Origin: a virus
Direction: 5' to 3' (one strand)
IMG/VR virus record: IMGVR_UViG_3300044801_000056
Location: 1-53,826 of that record
Length of the DNA: 53,826 nucleotides
The notes beneath the pieces were generated by a model, which saw only the letters and a list, made by a program, of their open reading frames with translations, had not been told where the DNA came from and made no database searches. The translations under genes and the position numbers were made by a program. Numbering within the stretch: position 1 is the stretch's first letter; the number at the start of each line of letters is the position of its first letter. Of the stretch, positions 832 to 32,167 are shown in pieces.

Positions 832-1356
832 ATGTCATTCCTCACTGAAATCGAAACCGAATTCGGCGTCATCAAAATCAATGTGAATACCGTGATCGGG
901 AAGGTTATTTCCGGCATCGAACTTGTTGCCAGCGAGGCAGATGCCCTGCTCAATTGGGCTATCAGCCAGTCCGCGACCATCCAGGCCGATCTTACCGCCG
1001 CGACACCGATCATTTCGGCTGTCACGGGTCTTTTGACGACTGCGGCGACGGGCAACCCGGCGTTGGGCGTGGCCGCCGCCGATGCCGTCAGCGGGATCAA
1101 TGTAGCGGTCACTGCGGCTGAGACTGCCGTCAAGGCGCTCAATGCCGCCAATGCTGCCCTCACGGCTTCCAAGGCTGCCGGAAATGGCAAGGTCGTTAAT
1201 GACACGCAAGCTGTGATGGCGGGCATCCAATCAGTCATCGGGGCGTCTCAGACCGTCGCTAACGTCAAAAGCGTTGCGCTGGCTGCCGCCGTGACGATCC
1301 AGGCCGCGATCAACGCCACGCCCGCAGCGCCGGTGCCCGCGTCAGTCGTCCAATAA
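832..1356 (+). CDS. Ala-rich helical protein of unknown function
   Basis: A 174-residue protein preceded by an AGGA ribosome site nine bases before ATG. After about residue 45 it is dominated by Ala, Thr, Val and Ile in long amphipathic helices, with no charged clusters and no clear transmembrane segment. Its last base is shared with the ATG of the next gene (TAATG). The composition recalls pore-forming or virion helical proteins, but I do not recognise a family. Confidence 0.65.
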   Translation: MSFLTEIETEFGVIKINVNTVIGKVISGIELVASEADALLNWAISQSATIQADLTAATPIISAVTGLLTTAATGNPALGVAAADAVSGINVAVTAAETAVKALNAANAALTASKAAGNGKVVNDTQAVMAGIQSVIGASQTVANVKSVALAAAVTIQAAINATPAAPVPASVVQ

Positions 1357-1544
1357 TGTTCGCCGCCCTCGTTTACGGTGTCATGTCAGCATGCACCATC
1401 CCGAATGGGGGCGGCGCCTGTGAGTTTCTGATGCAAGCTCACGGGCGTGCGCAATCGAAAGATTGCGGCACCCACGAACTCATCCGCGATGACGGCACGA
1501 CATTTCGGATTACGATTAACTGTAAACACTCCAAACCAGAATAA
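1356..1544 (+). CDS. Small Cys-containing protein, possible lipoprotein or periplasmic peptide
   Basis: A 62-residue protein coupled to the upstream gene by a TAATG overlap. It starts with a short hydrophobic stretch ending at a Cys near residue 13 and has three further Cys residues (near 22, 37 and 56). A short export signal with disulphides, or a spanin-like lipoprotein, would fit a lysis cluster. The hydrophobic stretch is too short to be sure and there is no proper lipobox. Confidence 0.5.
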   Translation: MFAALVYGVMSACTIPNGGGACEFLMQAHGRAQSKDCGTHELIRDDGTTFRITINCKHSKPE

Positions 1545-1556
1545 GGCTTGACTAGC

Positions 1557-1925
1557 ATGGACCTCACATCTGCGGTTGGATTTGCAACCATAGCTTTGGC
1601 ATTCGGAGCCATACTTGGTCATGCTTTTGCCGCTGGTGGCAAGAACGAGTCTATCAAAAAGAACACTGCGGAAATTGAGGCACATAAGATCGAGGCAAAA
1701 GCTCGCTGGGAAACAACGGTAGCTGAGTTTAAGGAAATTAGAAAAGAGCATATGAATTTTGAACTCATGGTGACGAGAGATTATGTGAAGAATGAAGATC
1801 TTGAAGCAACGGAGTCTCGTCTTATTACTTTGAATTCAAATACTCTTAGTCTGCTTAAAGAAATGTCCGGGAAGGTTGATCAGCTTCTTGGATGGGCTAG
1901 GAAGGCTGACGTAGACCATCATTGA
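1557..1925 (+). CDS. Membrane-anchored coiled-coil protein (possible spanin or holin partner)
   Basis: A 122-residue protein with one N-terminal transmembrane segment (about residues 6-26) followed by a charged helix with heptad-like spacing over the remaining 90 residues. ATG 1557 is chosen because AAGG lies ten bases upstream; a TTG three codons earlier sits almost on that ribosome site. An N-terminal anchor with a long periplasmic coiled coil is the design of inner-membrane spanins. The same design appears in the leftward gene at 4719-5141. Function is inferred only. Confidence 0.6.
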   Translation: MDLTSAVGFATIALAFGAILGHAFAAGGKNESIKKNTAEIEAHKIEAKARWETTVAEFKEIRKEHMNFELMVTRDYVKNEDLEATESRLITLNSNTLSLLKEMSGKVDQLLGWARKADVDHH

Positions 1926-1974
1926 TCTAGATCAAGATGACCATACAATTCTATGATCAAAAGGATAAGGTCAT

Positions 1975-3399
1975 ATGGCAAATGGGTTTTCTCGCGACGA
2001 TGCTGCACGCACGATAGAAGCAATCATTCAAGCCGAATCCGAAGGATACCCACGAAAGTCAACGAAACCATTTGAGAAAAGTTCCCTTACTCGCGCGGCA
2101 GAGATATTAGGTGTTAATTTTAGTACAATGCGATCACGATGTAAGCCAAACGGTGCTCTTGCAAATCTTGGTTTCACGCTCCCCGATGAAATCGTAAAGC
2201 CCAAAGCTCCTGATTATGCTACATATTTCGAGGAAGCAAAAACACGAGCTATAGAACCGAAACCTATACCTCTAGCCGATCCCATAGATGATTTTGTTGA
2301 TCCAAAAATAAATCCAATCGCATCTCCCATTATTCTGTTAAAAGACACTTCCCTAACGCCTGCTGAACGCCGGGACGCTGAATTCTGGCGGAAGCGATAT
2401 GAGAGCGAGCGCAAAGGAAAGCTAGACGTAGAGCATCTTCTAAATGAGGTTAGTGGCGTCGTCGGGCAGCGTGTAGTCCCTCCGCAATGGTTGATGCCAA
2501 GCATTGGTGGCCCGAAGAAACGATCGGTTATCGGTCTTCTCCTAACTGATTTGCATGTTGGAGAGGTCGTCGACCCTGACGAAATTAGCGGTCTCAATGC
2601 CTATAACCCTGAGATTTTCCAGCAACGCATACGCCGGTACATCATGGCCGCTTGTGAGGTTGGGGTTAGATGGAGTTCAGATTGTCAAAATCAAGGCGCA
2701 TTTGTCGTCATTGGCGGGGATTTGATCTCTGGTGATATCCATGATGAATTGAGGATGACGAATGCCCTCACGGCTCATGAACAAGCTCTCCTGGCGGCTC
2801 AAGAGCTAACCGCCGGTCTAAAGCATGTTGCTGATACATATGGCCGGGTCCATGTGGTCTGTGTCGCCGGAAACCATGGCCGGACAACCGTAAAGCCTTC
2901 CCAAAAACAATATGCCCGTCTTTCGTATGATACGCTGACGACCAAGATGGTTGCTATGTCGCTTGCAGGAGACAAAAGGATTACGATCGATATCCCGAAT
3001 AGCCGAGATGCGATTGTGCCGATCTTTGGCCGGAATGTCTTTATCAACCACGGGGATGGCATGGGAACAGGCGGCGGTATGGGTTTCGCCGGGCCGATTC
3101 TCCCGATAGCTCGCGGATCGAAAAAAGTGGAGCTTCAGCAATTCCGCGCAAAACGGTCATTTGATCTTCTATTGCATGGTCACTACCATCATAGCGCCAA
3201 CCAGAATATGACGCTCTCAAATGGGAGCTTCCCGGCGTACACCGAATATGGCAACGGGCTCCGTATGGGTGTCGAACCTCCTCAGCAATGGCTTTTCCTA
3301 CTCCATGAGAGATGGTGGCTCCGGGAGCGTGCAGAAATACAACTCGATGAGCCGAGTTTTAAACCGCTTCCCCCATCGCAATCTCCATTCGCGCGATGA
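1975..3399 (+). CDS. Calcineurin-like metallophosphoesterase with N-terminal HTH-like region
   Basis: A 474-residue protein with the full series of metallophosphoesterase motifs: D-x-H in LLLTDLHVGE, GD in VIGGDLISGD, GNH in VVCVAGNHGR and GHxH in LLHGHYHH. These ligate two metals and catalyse phosphodiester or phosphomonoester hydrolysis. The first 70 residues contain a helix-turn-helix-like stretch (TRAAEILGVNFSTMRSR), which suggests DNA binding, so a phage nuclease or DNA phosphatase is plausible. AAGGATAAGG precedes ATG. It overlaps the next gene by ATGA. Substrate unknown. Confidence 0.85.
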   Translation: MANGFSRDDAARTIEAIIQAESEGYPRKSTKPFEKSSLTRAAEILGVNFSTMRSRCKPNGALANLGFTLPDEIVKPKAPDYATYFEEAKTRAIEPKPIPLADPIDDFVDPKINPIASPIILLKDTSLTPAERRDAEFWRKRYESERKGKLDVEHLLNEVSGVVGQRVVPPQWLMPSIGGPKKRSVIGLLLTDLHVGEVVDPDEISGLNAYNPEIFQQRIRRYIMAACEVGVRWSSDCQNQGAFVVIGGDLISGDIHDELRMTNALTAHEQALLAAQELTAGLKHVADTYGRVHVVCVAGNHGRTTVKPSQKQYARLSYDTLTTKMVAMSLAGDKRITIDIPNSRDAIVPIFGRNVFINHGDGMGTGGGMGFAGPILPIARGSKKVELQQFRAKRSFDLLLHGHYHHSANQNMTLSNGSFPAYTEYGNGLRMGVEPPQQWLFLLHERWWLRERAEIQLDEPSFKPLPPSQSPFAR

Positions 3400-3620
3400 G
3401 TTTCGCACGAGCCGATGCCGTTATGCTCGTGGTCTCTGGGGATGACCTTCAGCTCTTGGTGGTCTCCGAAGGTCAAATGAATTACTATGAGTTAACCACT
3501 TCGTCCGCCGCTGCATTGATGTCCGATGCCGCTCGGATTTGCGCCGGGCAGATTCTTCCACGATCCAAAATCTTAGGAGCATCCCATGCGAATAGGCCCA
3601 AGGATGATCAAGGCATTTAG
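3396..3620 (+). CDS. Small hypothetical protein
   Basis: A 74-residue protein translationally coupled to the phosphoesterase by an ATGA overlap. The N-terminal half alternates hydrophobic and charged residues as in small beta-sheet proteins. No family is recognised. Its 3' end overlaps the next gene by 35 bases in another frame. Confidence 0.5.
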   Translation: MSFARADAVMLVVSGDDLQLLVVSEGQMNYYELTTSSAAALMSDAARICAGQILPRSKILGASHANRPKDDQGI

Positions 3621-3828
3621 ATCCAAACATGACGCGGCGCTGTATAAAATCATGTTATGGTCGGCATCCTATGAAAATGCGAAAGACTGCGGGGAAATCG
3701 AAGAATGTGAGCAAGCATTACAGGAAATGGCTTTTATCGTTCTCTCGACGCGGAATGATTTTACAGTCTCAGAAGAGATCGAGATGATGGATAGTAAAAT
3801 AACAACCCTAAAACCACGAGGCGCTTGA
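3586..3828 (+). CDS. Small hypothetical protein
   Basis: An 80-residue helical protein with two Cys and an acidic C-terminal half. A TTAGGAG ribosome site lies eight bases before ATG, which supports this start despite the 35-base overlap with the preceding gene. It is coupled to the next gene by TGATG. No function can be assigned. Confidence 0.6.
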   Translation: MRIGPRMIKAFRSKHDAALYKIMLWSASYENAKDCGEIEECEQALQEMAFIVLSTRNDFTVSEEIEMMDSKITTLKPRGA

Positions 3829-4148
3829 TGGAAGCCAGACATACACTGCCGAATCGGCGAGAGAGCTATATTATTGATTTTGAGCACAGGAATATGCCAT
3901 TTACTGTTGGGTATAGCTTTTTTAAGGAAAGCGGGAATCTGGCAGAAATTTTTGTTCAACCTCGATTGCCATCTAGTGATTTGCATGACGAATTGGGAAG
4001 CGCATCAACGATTCTTAGCATTTCTCTCCAATATGATGTCCCACTTTCGACGATCCGATCTGGCCTACCAAAACATGCAAATAATCGCCCTTGTTGCATA
4101 ATTGGAAAAGCTCTTACCGCTATTGCATCTGCCCAAAATATAGAATGA
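3828..4148 (+). CDS. TSCPD-like small protein (ribonucleotide-reductase C-terminal type)
   Basis: A 106-residue protein. The order LPNRRES, then a beta strand with FTVGYSFF, then AEIFVQ, then ILSISLQYDVPLSTIRSGL, ending in a Gly/Ala helix, matches the small TSCPD-type proteins common in alphaproteobacterial phages and prophages. These resemble the C-terminal domain of vitamin B12-dependent ribonucleotide reductase. In large reductases this domain helps present redox Cys; here a CC pair sits near residue 90 (RPCCIIG). The stand-alone role is not established. ATG 3828 overlaps the preceding stop. It is the last rightward gene before a convergent leftward operon. Confidence 0.6.
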   Translation: MEARHTLPNRRESYIIDFEHRNMPFTVGYSFFKESGNLAEIFVQPRLPSSDLHDELGSASTILSISLQYDVPLSTIRSGLPKHANNRPCCIIGKALTAIASAQNIE

Positions 4149-29539: not shown

Positions 29540-32167
29540 TTGGAAGTGAATGTAAATGATCTTTCGAAATATGAGGCTTATATCAATGGTCTCTCCCTGA
29601 AAGAAAAGGCAGAACTCGATAAGCTGATCGCTAAGGAACTTGCAGCCAAATGGCTTCCGGATCCGCGCAATCAGCCACAAGTGACGGCTTATCATTCGCA
29701 AGCCGACATGATGCTATACGGCGGGGCAGCGGGTAGTGGGAAGACTTCTCTTCTAGTCGGACTCGCGGTCACGGCTCATCATCGGACGGTCATCTTCCGG
29801 TCCAAGGCTGTCGATCTCAGAGGCGTCGAGGAATATCTCCTAGAGCTTATGGGACGCGACGGTTGGAATGGACAAGATAAAATCCTTCGCCGTCCCGAAT
29901 GTGTGATTGAACTCGGTCATCTTGAAAAGCCAGGGTCTGAACGGTCTTGGCAAGGTAGACCTCATGATTTGATCTGTGTGGGGCGCGGGACGCCGGTATT
30001 AATGGCTGATGGTTCTTACAAACCAGTAGAACAATTAGCCGTCGGAGAGATGGTCCAAACTTTGGAAGGTTCTCGCGCAATTCAGAAAACGTTTCCAGCT
30101 CAGTTTAAAAAAGCCGTCATTATCTCTACGGCTACACAATCTCAGGTTCAGTCCGTTGAACATGAGCTTTTGACAGACGCGGGTTGGGTATCCCACGGTA
30201 ACATTTTTTCACTTCGCCCTTTTTGGTTTTTCGAACCCATTGAACTCCCATTTTTGCGCAAAGTCGTAAAATGGTGCGTTCGGCCATATGAGCGGCTGCT
30301 TTACAGTCTCTCAGGCTTAAGTTTTCATCTGCGGCATATAACCGAACGATTGCTAATTCCTTTTCAGTGGGGGCATGCATCCGAACCGGAGATTTGCGCT
30401 TACGCGGGGCAAGAATATCTGGGAAATGATTTCGAAGACTTTGATGGTTCAGACCAAGAAATTCCGCAGCCTGCTTTATCGATCGTCCAACAAGAGCTTC
30501 TTCAAGCTGTTCAGCAGTTGGCCGACGTGGGGCATAATATTCTTCGTTTCGTTTTGCCATGTGATGGCGGCGGTGTTCTGAAAAAGTTAAAACTTCAAGG
30601 TTGGACAGATCGTTATTTGTCCGGCATTCATCGATATGGTGCACGCATTCTCGCTTTTTTGGGTCTTCACCTTGAACAAGCGGGCGTCCAGCTATATCTT
30701 CACCAATCATGCGATGTTGAGCAACCCAGCCCCATCGATTCTGAAGATGATGTCCAGGACAAAACTCGTAAACATAACCTCCATATAATGTCGTATGTCC
30801 ACCCTTATACGAAGGAAATTCGTCAAATATCGGAACGATCGATTCTTTATCCATCTTCATGTTCAGTCCATCAAATTGGAGTGGCAGAGTTATATGATTT
30901 GCAGGTTGAAGGAGCAAATCACTATATAACGAAGGGCGGATTTATCAATAAGAATTGCTTCGACGAGGGCGCCCAACTTAGTCGTGCAAAGGTGCAATTT
31001 GTTTTGGGTTGGTTGCGCTCAGTTGATCCAAATCAACGGCGTCGAGTGGTGATTGCATCGAACCCGCCAACAGGCGGTGAAGGTGAATGGCTGATTGAGT
31101 GGTTCGCGCCTTGGCTCGATCCGCAGTTTCCTAATCCCGCGAAATCAGGGGAATTGCGCTGGGCTGCAACGGCCCCTGATCTTGAAGGAACAACGATCTG
31201 GTTAAAGGATGCAAGCCCGATAATTTTCACTGAAGGGCGCGAATACCGGATTGCGAACGAAGAAGATGCCAAAGGAGGCAATCTTCACGTAATTCAGCCT
31301 ATGACCAGGACATTCATTCCGGGCCGGTTGGAAGACAATCCCTATCTCAGGGATACAGGTTATCGGGCCCAGCTTCAGGCTCTCCCGGAGCCGCTCCGAT
31401 CGCAAATGCTTCACGGCAACTTTCTTGCCGGGCGCCAGGATCATGAATGGCAAGTGATCCCGAGTGCATGGGTTAAGGAAGCTCAAGCGCGTTGGACAGA
31501 GCGGCCGCCGCAAGACGCGATTATGTCAGCTATCGGCGTCGATGTCGCGCAGGGCGGGGCTGATAATTCAGTTCTAGCGCCCCGCCATGGCCCTTGGTAT
31601 GCGCCATTGATTGTTGAGCCTGGCGTTAAAACGCCGCGCCCCAGCGACGTTGCGGCGCTCGTGGTGAGATATCGCCGGAACGCAGCTGCGGTTGTCGTGG
31701 ACGTTGGCGGTGGTTATGGTGGCGGTGTCAAGGAACGCCTTGAAGAGAATGAAATCACGGTCCGGCCTTTCAATGGGGCGGGCGAATCTCACGCTAGGAC
31801 TGCTGATAAGCAGCTTCCCTTTGCAAACAAGCGCGCGGAAGCGCATTGGCGGTTTCGGGAGGCATTGGACCCGGATCAAGAAAACGGGTCTAGCATCGCG
31901 CTTCCAAATGATCCTCAATTGTTTTCTGACTTGACTTCAATCCGCTGGAAGTTGACAAGCCAGGGGATTCAAATCGAGAGCAAGGAAGATTTGAAAAAGG
32001 CCGAGCGCTTAGGCCGGTCACCCGATAAGGGTGATGCGGTTATCATGGCATGGTCTGAAGGTGAAAAAGCGATTGTCGCCAATATCCGGCGGAAATCGAA
32101 AAGCAATTCTCTGCCGACAATGCCAACGATCGGCGTCGGATCTGGAACCGGATGGATGGGTCATTAG
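29540..32167 (+). CDS. Large terminase subunit interrupted by an intein
   Basis: An 875-residue frame. The extein is about 548 residues: Walker A GGAAGSGKTS (61-70), then Walker B DLI/CFDEG split by an intein at residues 146-472, a motor domain end (VVIASNPP), and a C-terminal RNase H-like nuclease (SAIGVDVAQGGADNS, VVVDVGGGYGGGV, SPDKGDAVIMAWS). TerL cuts concatemeric phage DNA and pumps it into the prohead. Splicing is needed to restore Walker B, so activity depends on the intein. A TTG start is used by this frame, with a GTG at 29546 as alternative. It precedes the portal gene, as in P22. Confidence 0.92.
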   Translation: MEVNVNDLSKYEAYINGLSLKEKAELDKLIAKELAAKWLPDPRNQPQVTAYHSQADMMLYGGAAGSGKTSLLVGLAVTAHHRTVIFRSKAVDLRGVEEYLLELMGRDGWNGQDKILRRPECVIELGHLEKPGSERSWQGRPHDLICVGRGTPVLMADGSYKPVEQLAVGEMVQTLEGSRAIQKTFPAQFKKAVIISTATQSQVQSVEHELLTDAGWVSHGNIFSLRPFWFFEPIELPFLRKVVKWCVRPYERLLYSLSGLSFHLRHITERLLIPFQWGHASEPEICAYAGQEYLGNDFEDFDGSDQEIPQPALSIVQQELLQAVQQLADVGHNILRFVLPCDGGGVLKKLKLQGWTDRYLSGIHRYGARILAFLGLHLEQAGVQLYLHQSCDVEQPSPIDSEDDVQDKTRKHNLHIMSYVHPYTKEIRQISERSILYPSSCSVHQIGVAELYDLQVEGANHYITKGGFINKNCFDEGAQLSRAKVQFVLGWLRSVDPNQRRRVVIASNPPTGGEGEWLIEWFAPWLDPQFPNPAKSGELRWAATAPDLEGTTIWLKDASPIIFTEGREYRIANEEDAKGGNLHVIQPMTRTFIPGRLEDNPYLRDTGYRAQLQALPEPLRSQMLHGNFLAGRQDHEWQVIPSAWVKEAQARWTERPPQDAIMSAIGVDVAQGGADNSVLAPRHGPWYAPLIVEPGVKTPRPSDVAALVVRYRRNAAAVVVDVGGGYGGGVKERLEENEITVRPFNGAGESHARTADKQLPFANKRAEAHWRFREALDPDQENGSSIALPNDPQLFSDLTSIRWKLTSQGIQIESKEDLKKAERLGRSPDKGDAVIMAWSEGEKAIVANIRRKSKSNSLPTMPTIGVGSGTGWMGH
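29975..30955 (+). other. Intein in TerL Walker B, with an antisense HNH gene inside
   Basis: A 327-residue in-frame insert. It starts with Cys (GRGTPVLMADGSYKPVEQL, block A), has block B-like VQSVEHELLTDAG, and ends ELYDLQVEGANHYITKGG then INKN (blocks F and G) before the +1 Cys of CFDEG. The penultimate residue is Lys rather than the usual His. The central part (about residues 200-430 of the frame) does not resemble LAGLIDADG or other sense-strand endonucleases; the minus strand there encodes an HNH endonuclease (30132-30860). Confidence 0.85.
30132..30860 (-). CDS. HNH homing endonuclease encoded antisense within the intein
   Basis: A 242-residue protein on the strand opposite terL. GWVAQHRMIGEDIAGRPL, then ECVHHIDECRTNNDLSNLEVLT and EHRRHH form an HNH_3-type catalytic domain: the HH of VHHID, the N of NNDLSNL and the last His are the expected active-site residues. 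The last 120 residues carry two HTH-like stretches (SIKQAAEFLGLNHQSLRNHFP and SLRDCKAAAHMAERTILRL), suited to target recognition. ATG 30860 is the first in frame; 30854 is the alternative. The minus-strand TATATA-like run near 30930 may be a promoter. A homing function is inferred from its position between intein splice domains. Confidence 0.82.
   Translation of the reverse strand: MKMDKESIVPIFDEFPSYKGGHTTLYGGYVYEFCPGHHLQNRWGWVAQHRMIGEDIAGRPLVQGEDPKKRECVHHIDECRTNNDLSNLEVLTFSEHRRHHMAKRNEEYYAPRRPTAEQLEEALVGRSIKQAAEFLGLNHQSLRNHFPDILAPRKRKSPVRMHAPTEKELAIVRLYAADENLSLRDCKAAAHMAERTILRLCAKMGVQWVRKTKKGEVKKCYRGIPNPRLSKAHVQRTEPEIV

Follow-up and report, generated by a model that had tools for sequence, protein, structure and literature searches.

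A terminase large-subunit intein with an HNH endonuclease gene on its opposite strand

Textbook mobile inteins carry their endonuclease in frame. In current descriptions the endonuclease of an intein is either a domain of the intein protein or a separate gene located in a gap or in an intron, and in some group I introns the endonuclease gene is antisense. The so-called fractured genes, in which a split intein has a free-standing endonuclease between its halves, were reportedly described by Dassa and colleagues in 2009. The segD gene of T4 is also antisense (PMC2988022). The closest published case to the locus described here is the ShiLan domain, an out-of-frame HNH concealed within a phage methylase, which is encoded on the same strand and has no detectable splicing domain (Arsenault et al., 2025; PMC11855218); the words antisense, opposite and reverse are absent from the text of that paper. 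The preliminary description of our locus knew of no antisense endonuclease in an intein, and a full-text search limited to open-access papers returned no report of one.

The window analysed here is the complete virus record IMGVR_UViG_3300044801_000056 (53,826 nt). Its terL gene, whose exact start codon is uncertain (TTG at 29540 or GTG at 29546), is interrupted by an intein at the Walker B motif of the terminase ATPase (PHDLI↓CFDE). The site is empty in Limnohabitans phage DC33, which reads PHDLLVFDE (PHDLL-VFDE, compared with PHDLI-intein-CFDE in the window). The insert has the features by which inteins are recognised: an in-frame position at a conserved host motif with intein-free homologues, a nucleophile at position 1 (Cys), block A/B-like and F/G-like sequences, a terminal Asn, one of the residues Cys, Ser or Thr at +1 (here Cys) and a Hint fold. 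The penultimate residue is a lysine, without the usual histidine, which is a known variation of inteins. The N-terminal part matches the Pfam family Hom_end_hint at 2e-5, under Pfam's own cut-off, while Foldseek matches the ends of the AlphaFold2 (AF2) model to gp41-1, Prp8, PI-SceI and other solved inteins with a probability of 1.0. Pfam and PHROG profile searches with the window intein gave no endonuclease family match in the sense middle. As for a group I intron, a search of terL on both strands gave no Rfam match at E up to 1, and no group I RNA structure was recognised. It should also be noted that DC33 (PQ492659.1; locus L098) is filed under Inoviridae, although its genome measures 39 kb and contains a terL of the tailed-phage type; this classification seems mistaken.

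The opposite strand of the intein encodes a protein that has the HNH motif and matches many HNH families (PHROG HNH at 7.6e-18, and Pfam HNH_3 above its cut-off). The AF2 model calculated from an alignment of 21 homologues (mean pLDDT 89) shows a β/HNH core followed by two C-terminal helix-turn-helix (HTH) units. A PDB fold search with this model gave no significant match (I-HmuI ranks fifth, with an E value of 0.34), and the identity of the protein as an HNH therefore rests on the profiles. In the overlap, position 3 of the HNH codons faces position 2 of the sense codons, and the two first positions face each other. Since the Hint ends are ordered and the middle is not, whereas the antisense product is ordered, the sense product is best read as a mini-intein with a long disordered loop and the antisense product as a folded nuclease. 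The preliminary description had read the locus in the same way, with an in-frame terL intein recognised from its Cys start, A/B-like and F/G sequences and +1 Cys, and an antisense HNH protein with two HTH-like repeats whose wobble base lies opposite sense position 2. Translation, Foldseek, the family profiles and the models of both translations, the last two of which it had proposed as checks, all agree with it.

Table 1. Features of the terL locus (positions in the window).
Feature	Positions	Strand	Basis
terL	29540-32167	+	Interrupted in frame by intein
TerL N-extein	29540-29974	+	ORF; PHROG terminase large subunit match
Intein, 327 aa, Cys1 to Asn327	29975-30955	+	Translation; Foldseek of model; empty site in Limnohabitans phage DC33
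Hint N-terminal half (blocks A and B)	29975-30205	+	AF2 pLDDT 84-96, residues 1-70; conserved in 14 inteins
Sense middle opposite the HNH gene, predicted disordered filler	30209-30781	+	AF2 pLDDT mostly <50, unordered between residues 70 and 270; changes in related pairs follow HNH frame
Hint C-terminal half: Y-x-HPYT motif (30794-30811), block F, block G (NHYITKGGFINKN)	30782-30955	+	AF2 pLDDT 77-95, residues 270-327; YxHPYT also in mini-inteins
TerL C-extein, first residue +1 Cys	30956-32167	+	PHROG terminase match
HNH endonuclease gene, 242 aa, ATG at 30860	30132-30860	−	PHROG/Pfam; AF2 pLDDT 89; homologues
HNH motif region (ECVHHIDE...NN...NL...H)	30567-30662	−	Pfam HNH_3, residues 67-98; invariant His/Asn columns
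First helix-turn-helix unit of HNH protein	30402-30515	−	Model helices 116-153; weak I-HmuI/NUMOD-like matches
Second helix-turn-helix unit of HNH protein	30252-30365	−	Model helices 166-203
Double coding: Hint block B (+), HNH C-terminal tail (−)	30152-30187		Sense conservation exceeds echo, z ~9 (tail region)
Candidate promoter-like TTGATA-N16-TATAGT upstream of HNH, inside block G	30921-30948	−	Sigma-70-like scan

The locus shares with ShiLan an HNH overprinted in an insertion that is open in the frame of the host gene, as well as a patchy, homing-like distribution, but ShiLan lies on the same strand in a different frame, with no Hint domain and no splicing found, whereas here the HNH is antisense and lies inside a true intein. 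Bifunctional inteins (PI-SceI, or the LAGLIDADG inteins such as those of loci L020 and L025) likewise have Hint halves flanking the endonuclease region and also exist in mini-intein forms; their endonuclease is part of the intein polypeptide, in the same frame, whereas that of the window is a separate protein from the other strand. In segD and in the antisense genes of group I introns, the endonuclease gene also runs opposite to the host gene, but the host frame need not be held open through it, as the terL frame must be. Fractured genes, too, link a separate endonuclease protein to an intein; however, their host gene is broken in two, while terL is one continuous reading frame. Homing endonucleases of the I-HmuI type likewise combine an HNH core with C-terminal HTH (NUMOD-like) units, although the matches are weak and I-HmuI is encoded in an RNA intron, not opposite an intein. 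The element would work like a homing intein, with a coding arrangement that we could not find described in open-access papers.

We scanned viral contigs with the HNH and with joined Hint halves, and in a later round with a broader profile of the HNH; most of the sequences are metagenomic contigs. At the same Walker B site, 26 further distinct terL genes carry an antisense HNH, roughly 31-51% identical to the window protein, and the sense frame is unbroken in each. The Hint scan revealed five distinct mini-inteins of 147-162 aa at this site without an HNH (L064, L065, L066, L077 and L093), which are the relatives that the preliminary description had suggested looking for. One of them, L093, sits in an Oscillospiraceae MAG and was the sole match of a bacterial genome scan with the Hint profile; the bacterial genome scan with the HNH profile found no relatives. 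Among the relatives from the viral contig scans, none has an intein at the Walker B site with the HNH on the sense strand. Four terL genes (L020, L025, L066 and L186) have two inteins each; in L020 and L025 the second intein, located in the P-loop, has in-frame LAGLIDADG-like motifs, so that the conventional and antisense types coexist in one gene. In L114 (terL at 895-3495, − strand), the intein ends with INKN followed by Ser and not Cys, in the same Walker B region, and its antisense HNH has extra domains.

The wider HNH scan led to a second set of inteins, inserted in the P-loop of terL and associated with an HNH of a different subfamily. Here the HTH precedes the HNH core, which is the opposite domain order to that of the Walker B subfamily, although the HNH cores are homologous. 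Six HNH proteins of this set were then used for a scan, and the best 80 of 550 related HNH loci were examined: in 74 of these 80 the HNH is antisense inside a longer ORF, and all 74 show no sense stop and the same phase, the short matches among them being uninformative alone. Overall, at least 88 distinct genes are found at 95% identity, 27 at the Walker B site and at least 61 elsewhere. Among the matches listed, the junction is mostly the P-loop N↓(S/T/C)GK, with some at GK↓C...HN↓T, one step downstream, and the hosts are mostly terL, with an SbcC-like gene (L222) and a helicase gene (L244). The arrangement is also present in isolated phages. In Pectobacterium phage Abuela the terL is annotated as 'hypothetical', and in Pseudoalteromonas phage PHS3 (KX912252.1) the HNH is annotated and terL only from after the HNH. 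The same HNH is matched by other phages of the Ymer genus and by Dickeya phage Setonix; the Ymer genus paper mentions neither intein nor HNH.

To calculate how many stops are expected opposite an HNH gene, we held the HNH protein sequence constant while drawing new codons for it according to the codon usage of its genome, and counted the stops in the three opposite frames. In the window, about seven stops are expected in the sense frame, which stays open in about 5 of 100,000 draws; the actual number is zero. The terL frame likewise has no stop in any of the 27 distinct Walker B loci, compared with about 4-14 expected per HNH protein (probability of an open frame at most 0.0045 in each and mostly below 0.001), while the other two sense frames contain 2-20 stops. 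HNH relatives outside inteins served as a negative control, and no spanning opposite-strand ORF was found at these weaker matches (L007-L018, L026-L062). The preliminary description attributed the open sense frame solely to the lack, in the antisense gene, of any complement of a sense stop; this is mechanically right, but the lack is itself selected. These results also bear on the idea that the insert is an RNA intron which splices itself and harbours an antisense endonuclease gene, its open sense frame being incidental. Endonuclease genes of free-standing and intron elements can indeed be antisense to the host gene elsewhere, yet the frame is open against expectation in all loci, the Hint fold matches solved inteins and the site harbours mini-inteins, and we regard this reading as very unlikely. 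In L084 (820-1725, − strand), the HNH has an extra HTH repeat block and the sense intein is longer (398 aa) but still open, as if the sense strand passively tracked a domain duplication on the antisense strand.

We then asked which strand is under selection and, in 16 close pairs that are independent of each other (two belong to the window's family and the rest to the P-loop family), assigned each nucleotide difference to its position in the sense codon. The overlap has 183, 453 and 145 changes at positions 1, 2 and 3, i.e. they fall mainly on the HNH wobble base, whereas the terL flanks of the same genes show the normal pattern (749, 418 and 2794; chi-square p ~1e-237 for the difference). Codons with a single change give a dN/dS of 0.11 for the HNH frame, against 3.9 for the sense frame. 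The comparison of both frames, also proposed in the preliminary description, thus places selection in the overlap on the HNH codons, which are under purifying selection, and the sense middle is a filler that is only kept free of stops. HNH-silent changes should have produced 14.9 sense stops in these pairs and none is seen, a figure with some ascertainment bias because loci were counted as nested by their open sense ORF; as a counterweight, only three of the best 80 of 550 related HNH loci have stops in all frames.

In the HTH part, sense conservation is no higher than the echo of the antisense protein (z 0.6), and with no excess identity there a hidden sense function of the intein middle was rejected. 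Sense conservation exceeds the echo only at the two ends, where the HNH gene overlaps Hint block B and the Y-x-HPYT motif. As this motif is also found in mini-inteins, both ends are truly double-coded. The strong mutual constraint between the two readings that had been put forward hence holds at the ends, but not in the middle, where the sense amino acids show no conservation beyond the echo. The cost to the sense frame is mainly stop avoidance, since the HTH/HNH middle lacks such conservation, plus real double coding at both ends.

Two further alternatives can be weighed with these data. Chance antisense ORFs are common, and the HNH frame could be the mirage of a functional sense-strand endonuclease domain. 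We give this practically no credence: it is contradicted by the substitution pattern, with its selection at the HNH wobble, and by the HNH family matches and ordered HNH model, while the sense middle lacks order in its model, falls into no endonuclease family and shows no conservation above the echo. The missing amino-acid constraint in the sense middle might instead suggest a dead terL copy, open by chance, in which only the HNH is still selected. However, change at third positions is normal in the flanking exteins of the compared pairs, the Hint ends keep their sense conservation and the sense frame is open in every locus, which makes a dead gene extremely improbable.

The distribution of the alleles points to mobility. 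The mini-inteins are scattered on the extein tree, where five changes are needed; this scatter fits repeated loss of the nuclease, with gain as the alternative. The HNH genes of L073 and L082 are sisters (100/99), but a grouping of their exteins is rejected (AU p = 1e-4), and so is a tree that constrains the L082 HNH to cluster with the HNHs found in its extein relatives (p = 1e-4). This conflict indicates that the intein moved together with its nuclease gene between terL lineages, as homing predicts. Homing itself, in which the element would cut the empty site and drive its own transfer, is what we infer from these conflicting trees and from the patchy mini-intein and empty alleles. One may object that HNH proteins have been reported to adjoin terminase genes and to aid packaging (as cited in PMC11855218 and PMC12613952), and here the HNH lies inside terL itself; with the same anatomy, it could be a packaging nuclease working with TerL that is placed in the terL intein, and not a homing enzyme. 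Yet, in related phages the same terL has either a mini-intein or no intein, and in neither case is an HNH present there, the second HNH subfamily also occurs in SbcC-like and helicase genes, and the HNH trees of L073 and L082 follow the intein and not terL. We consider a packaging role unlikely.

The best explanation, which we hold to be very probably correct, is a mobile intein with its homing endonuclease gene on the opposite strand. The sense strand would be translated right through the intein, and the two Hint halves would fold together, tolerating about 190 residues of disordered filler at the usual position of the endonuclease, and splice out to leave an intact TerL. A separate HNH and HTH nuclease, with a start codon and a ribosome-binding site of its own, would be made from the antisense strand. 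The probable cutting site of this nuclease is at the Walker B codons of terL copies that lack the intein, and repair of the cut gene would then copy in the intein along with the nuclease gene.

Concerning expression signals, 23 of 24 family members share the position of an ATG close to the start of the HNH gene, and Shine-Dalgarno-like pairing of −4 kcal/mol or stronger occurs at 71% of HNH starts compared with 29% of matched antisense sites (P = 2e-5); the window's own ribosome-binding site is weak. In synonymous shuffles, codon-level enrichment of the promoter-like site in block G (Table 1) has a P of 0.04-0.06. As a selected antisense promoter, this site was rejected, since the residues NHYIT...FINKN of block G dictate most of TTGATA-N16-TATAGT, and it is retained as a candidate only. 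Antisense transcription would be independent of the terL mRNA. Taking the two HNH subfamilies together, we lean towards the view that antisense-coded endonucleases are a widespread and previously unrecognised route of mobility for phage inteins, which would have arisen at least twice (opposite domain orders, at the Walker B and P-loop sites) and spread among unrelated P-loop ATPases, the nuclease being expressed apart from the spliced host protein, and at another time, through signals inside the intein's own coding sequence.

Since the nuclease gene overlies the intein on the complementary strand, the same bases serve both a selfish gene and an essential packaging gene over about 240 codons. 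This offers a natural system for two-strand coding in which one strand supplies the information and the other only avoids stops, and it suggests, in a form that can be tested, how the nuclease of an intein could be expressed while no host protein is made; as the arrangement exists in isolated phages, it is open to testing. Moreover, because the sense translation resembles a large endonuclease-free intein and gene callers drop one of the two genes, as in PHS3 with its annotated HNH and truncated terL, intein searches should change.

Finally, a few other arrangements were observed in the scans. In Gordonia phage Angelicage (L094; NC_055762.1, 1-3862), the terL intein (terL at 514-2901, +) contains an ORF for an endonuclease VII-like HNH that shares its strand but not its frame (1305-1838, +), and the sense middle is of low complexity; this is a second style of overprinting within a true Hint intein. 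In an uncultured huge phage (L263; LR756508.1, 298306-303638), a methyltransferase gene (1558-3912, +) has an intein-like insert (CITPDTEI...VTGN) carrying a same-strand out-of-frame HNH (ORF 1931-2818, +). A CCA-adding-enzyme-like ORF of a 436-kb virus (L140; 2035-4272, −) contains an antisense HNH (2887-3534, +). Its sense strand is open in another phase (P 0.005), neither a Hint domain nor an Rfam intron was seen, and the ORF is possibly an antisense counterpart of ShiLan. In the uvsX of Yersinia phage TG1 (L097; KP202158.1, 1865-4443), the intein halves lie in two ORFs with a GIY-YIG gene between them, in the style of the fractured genes.
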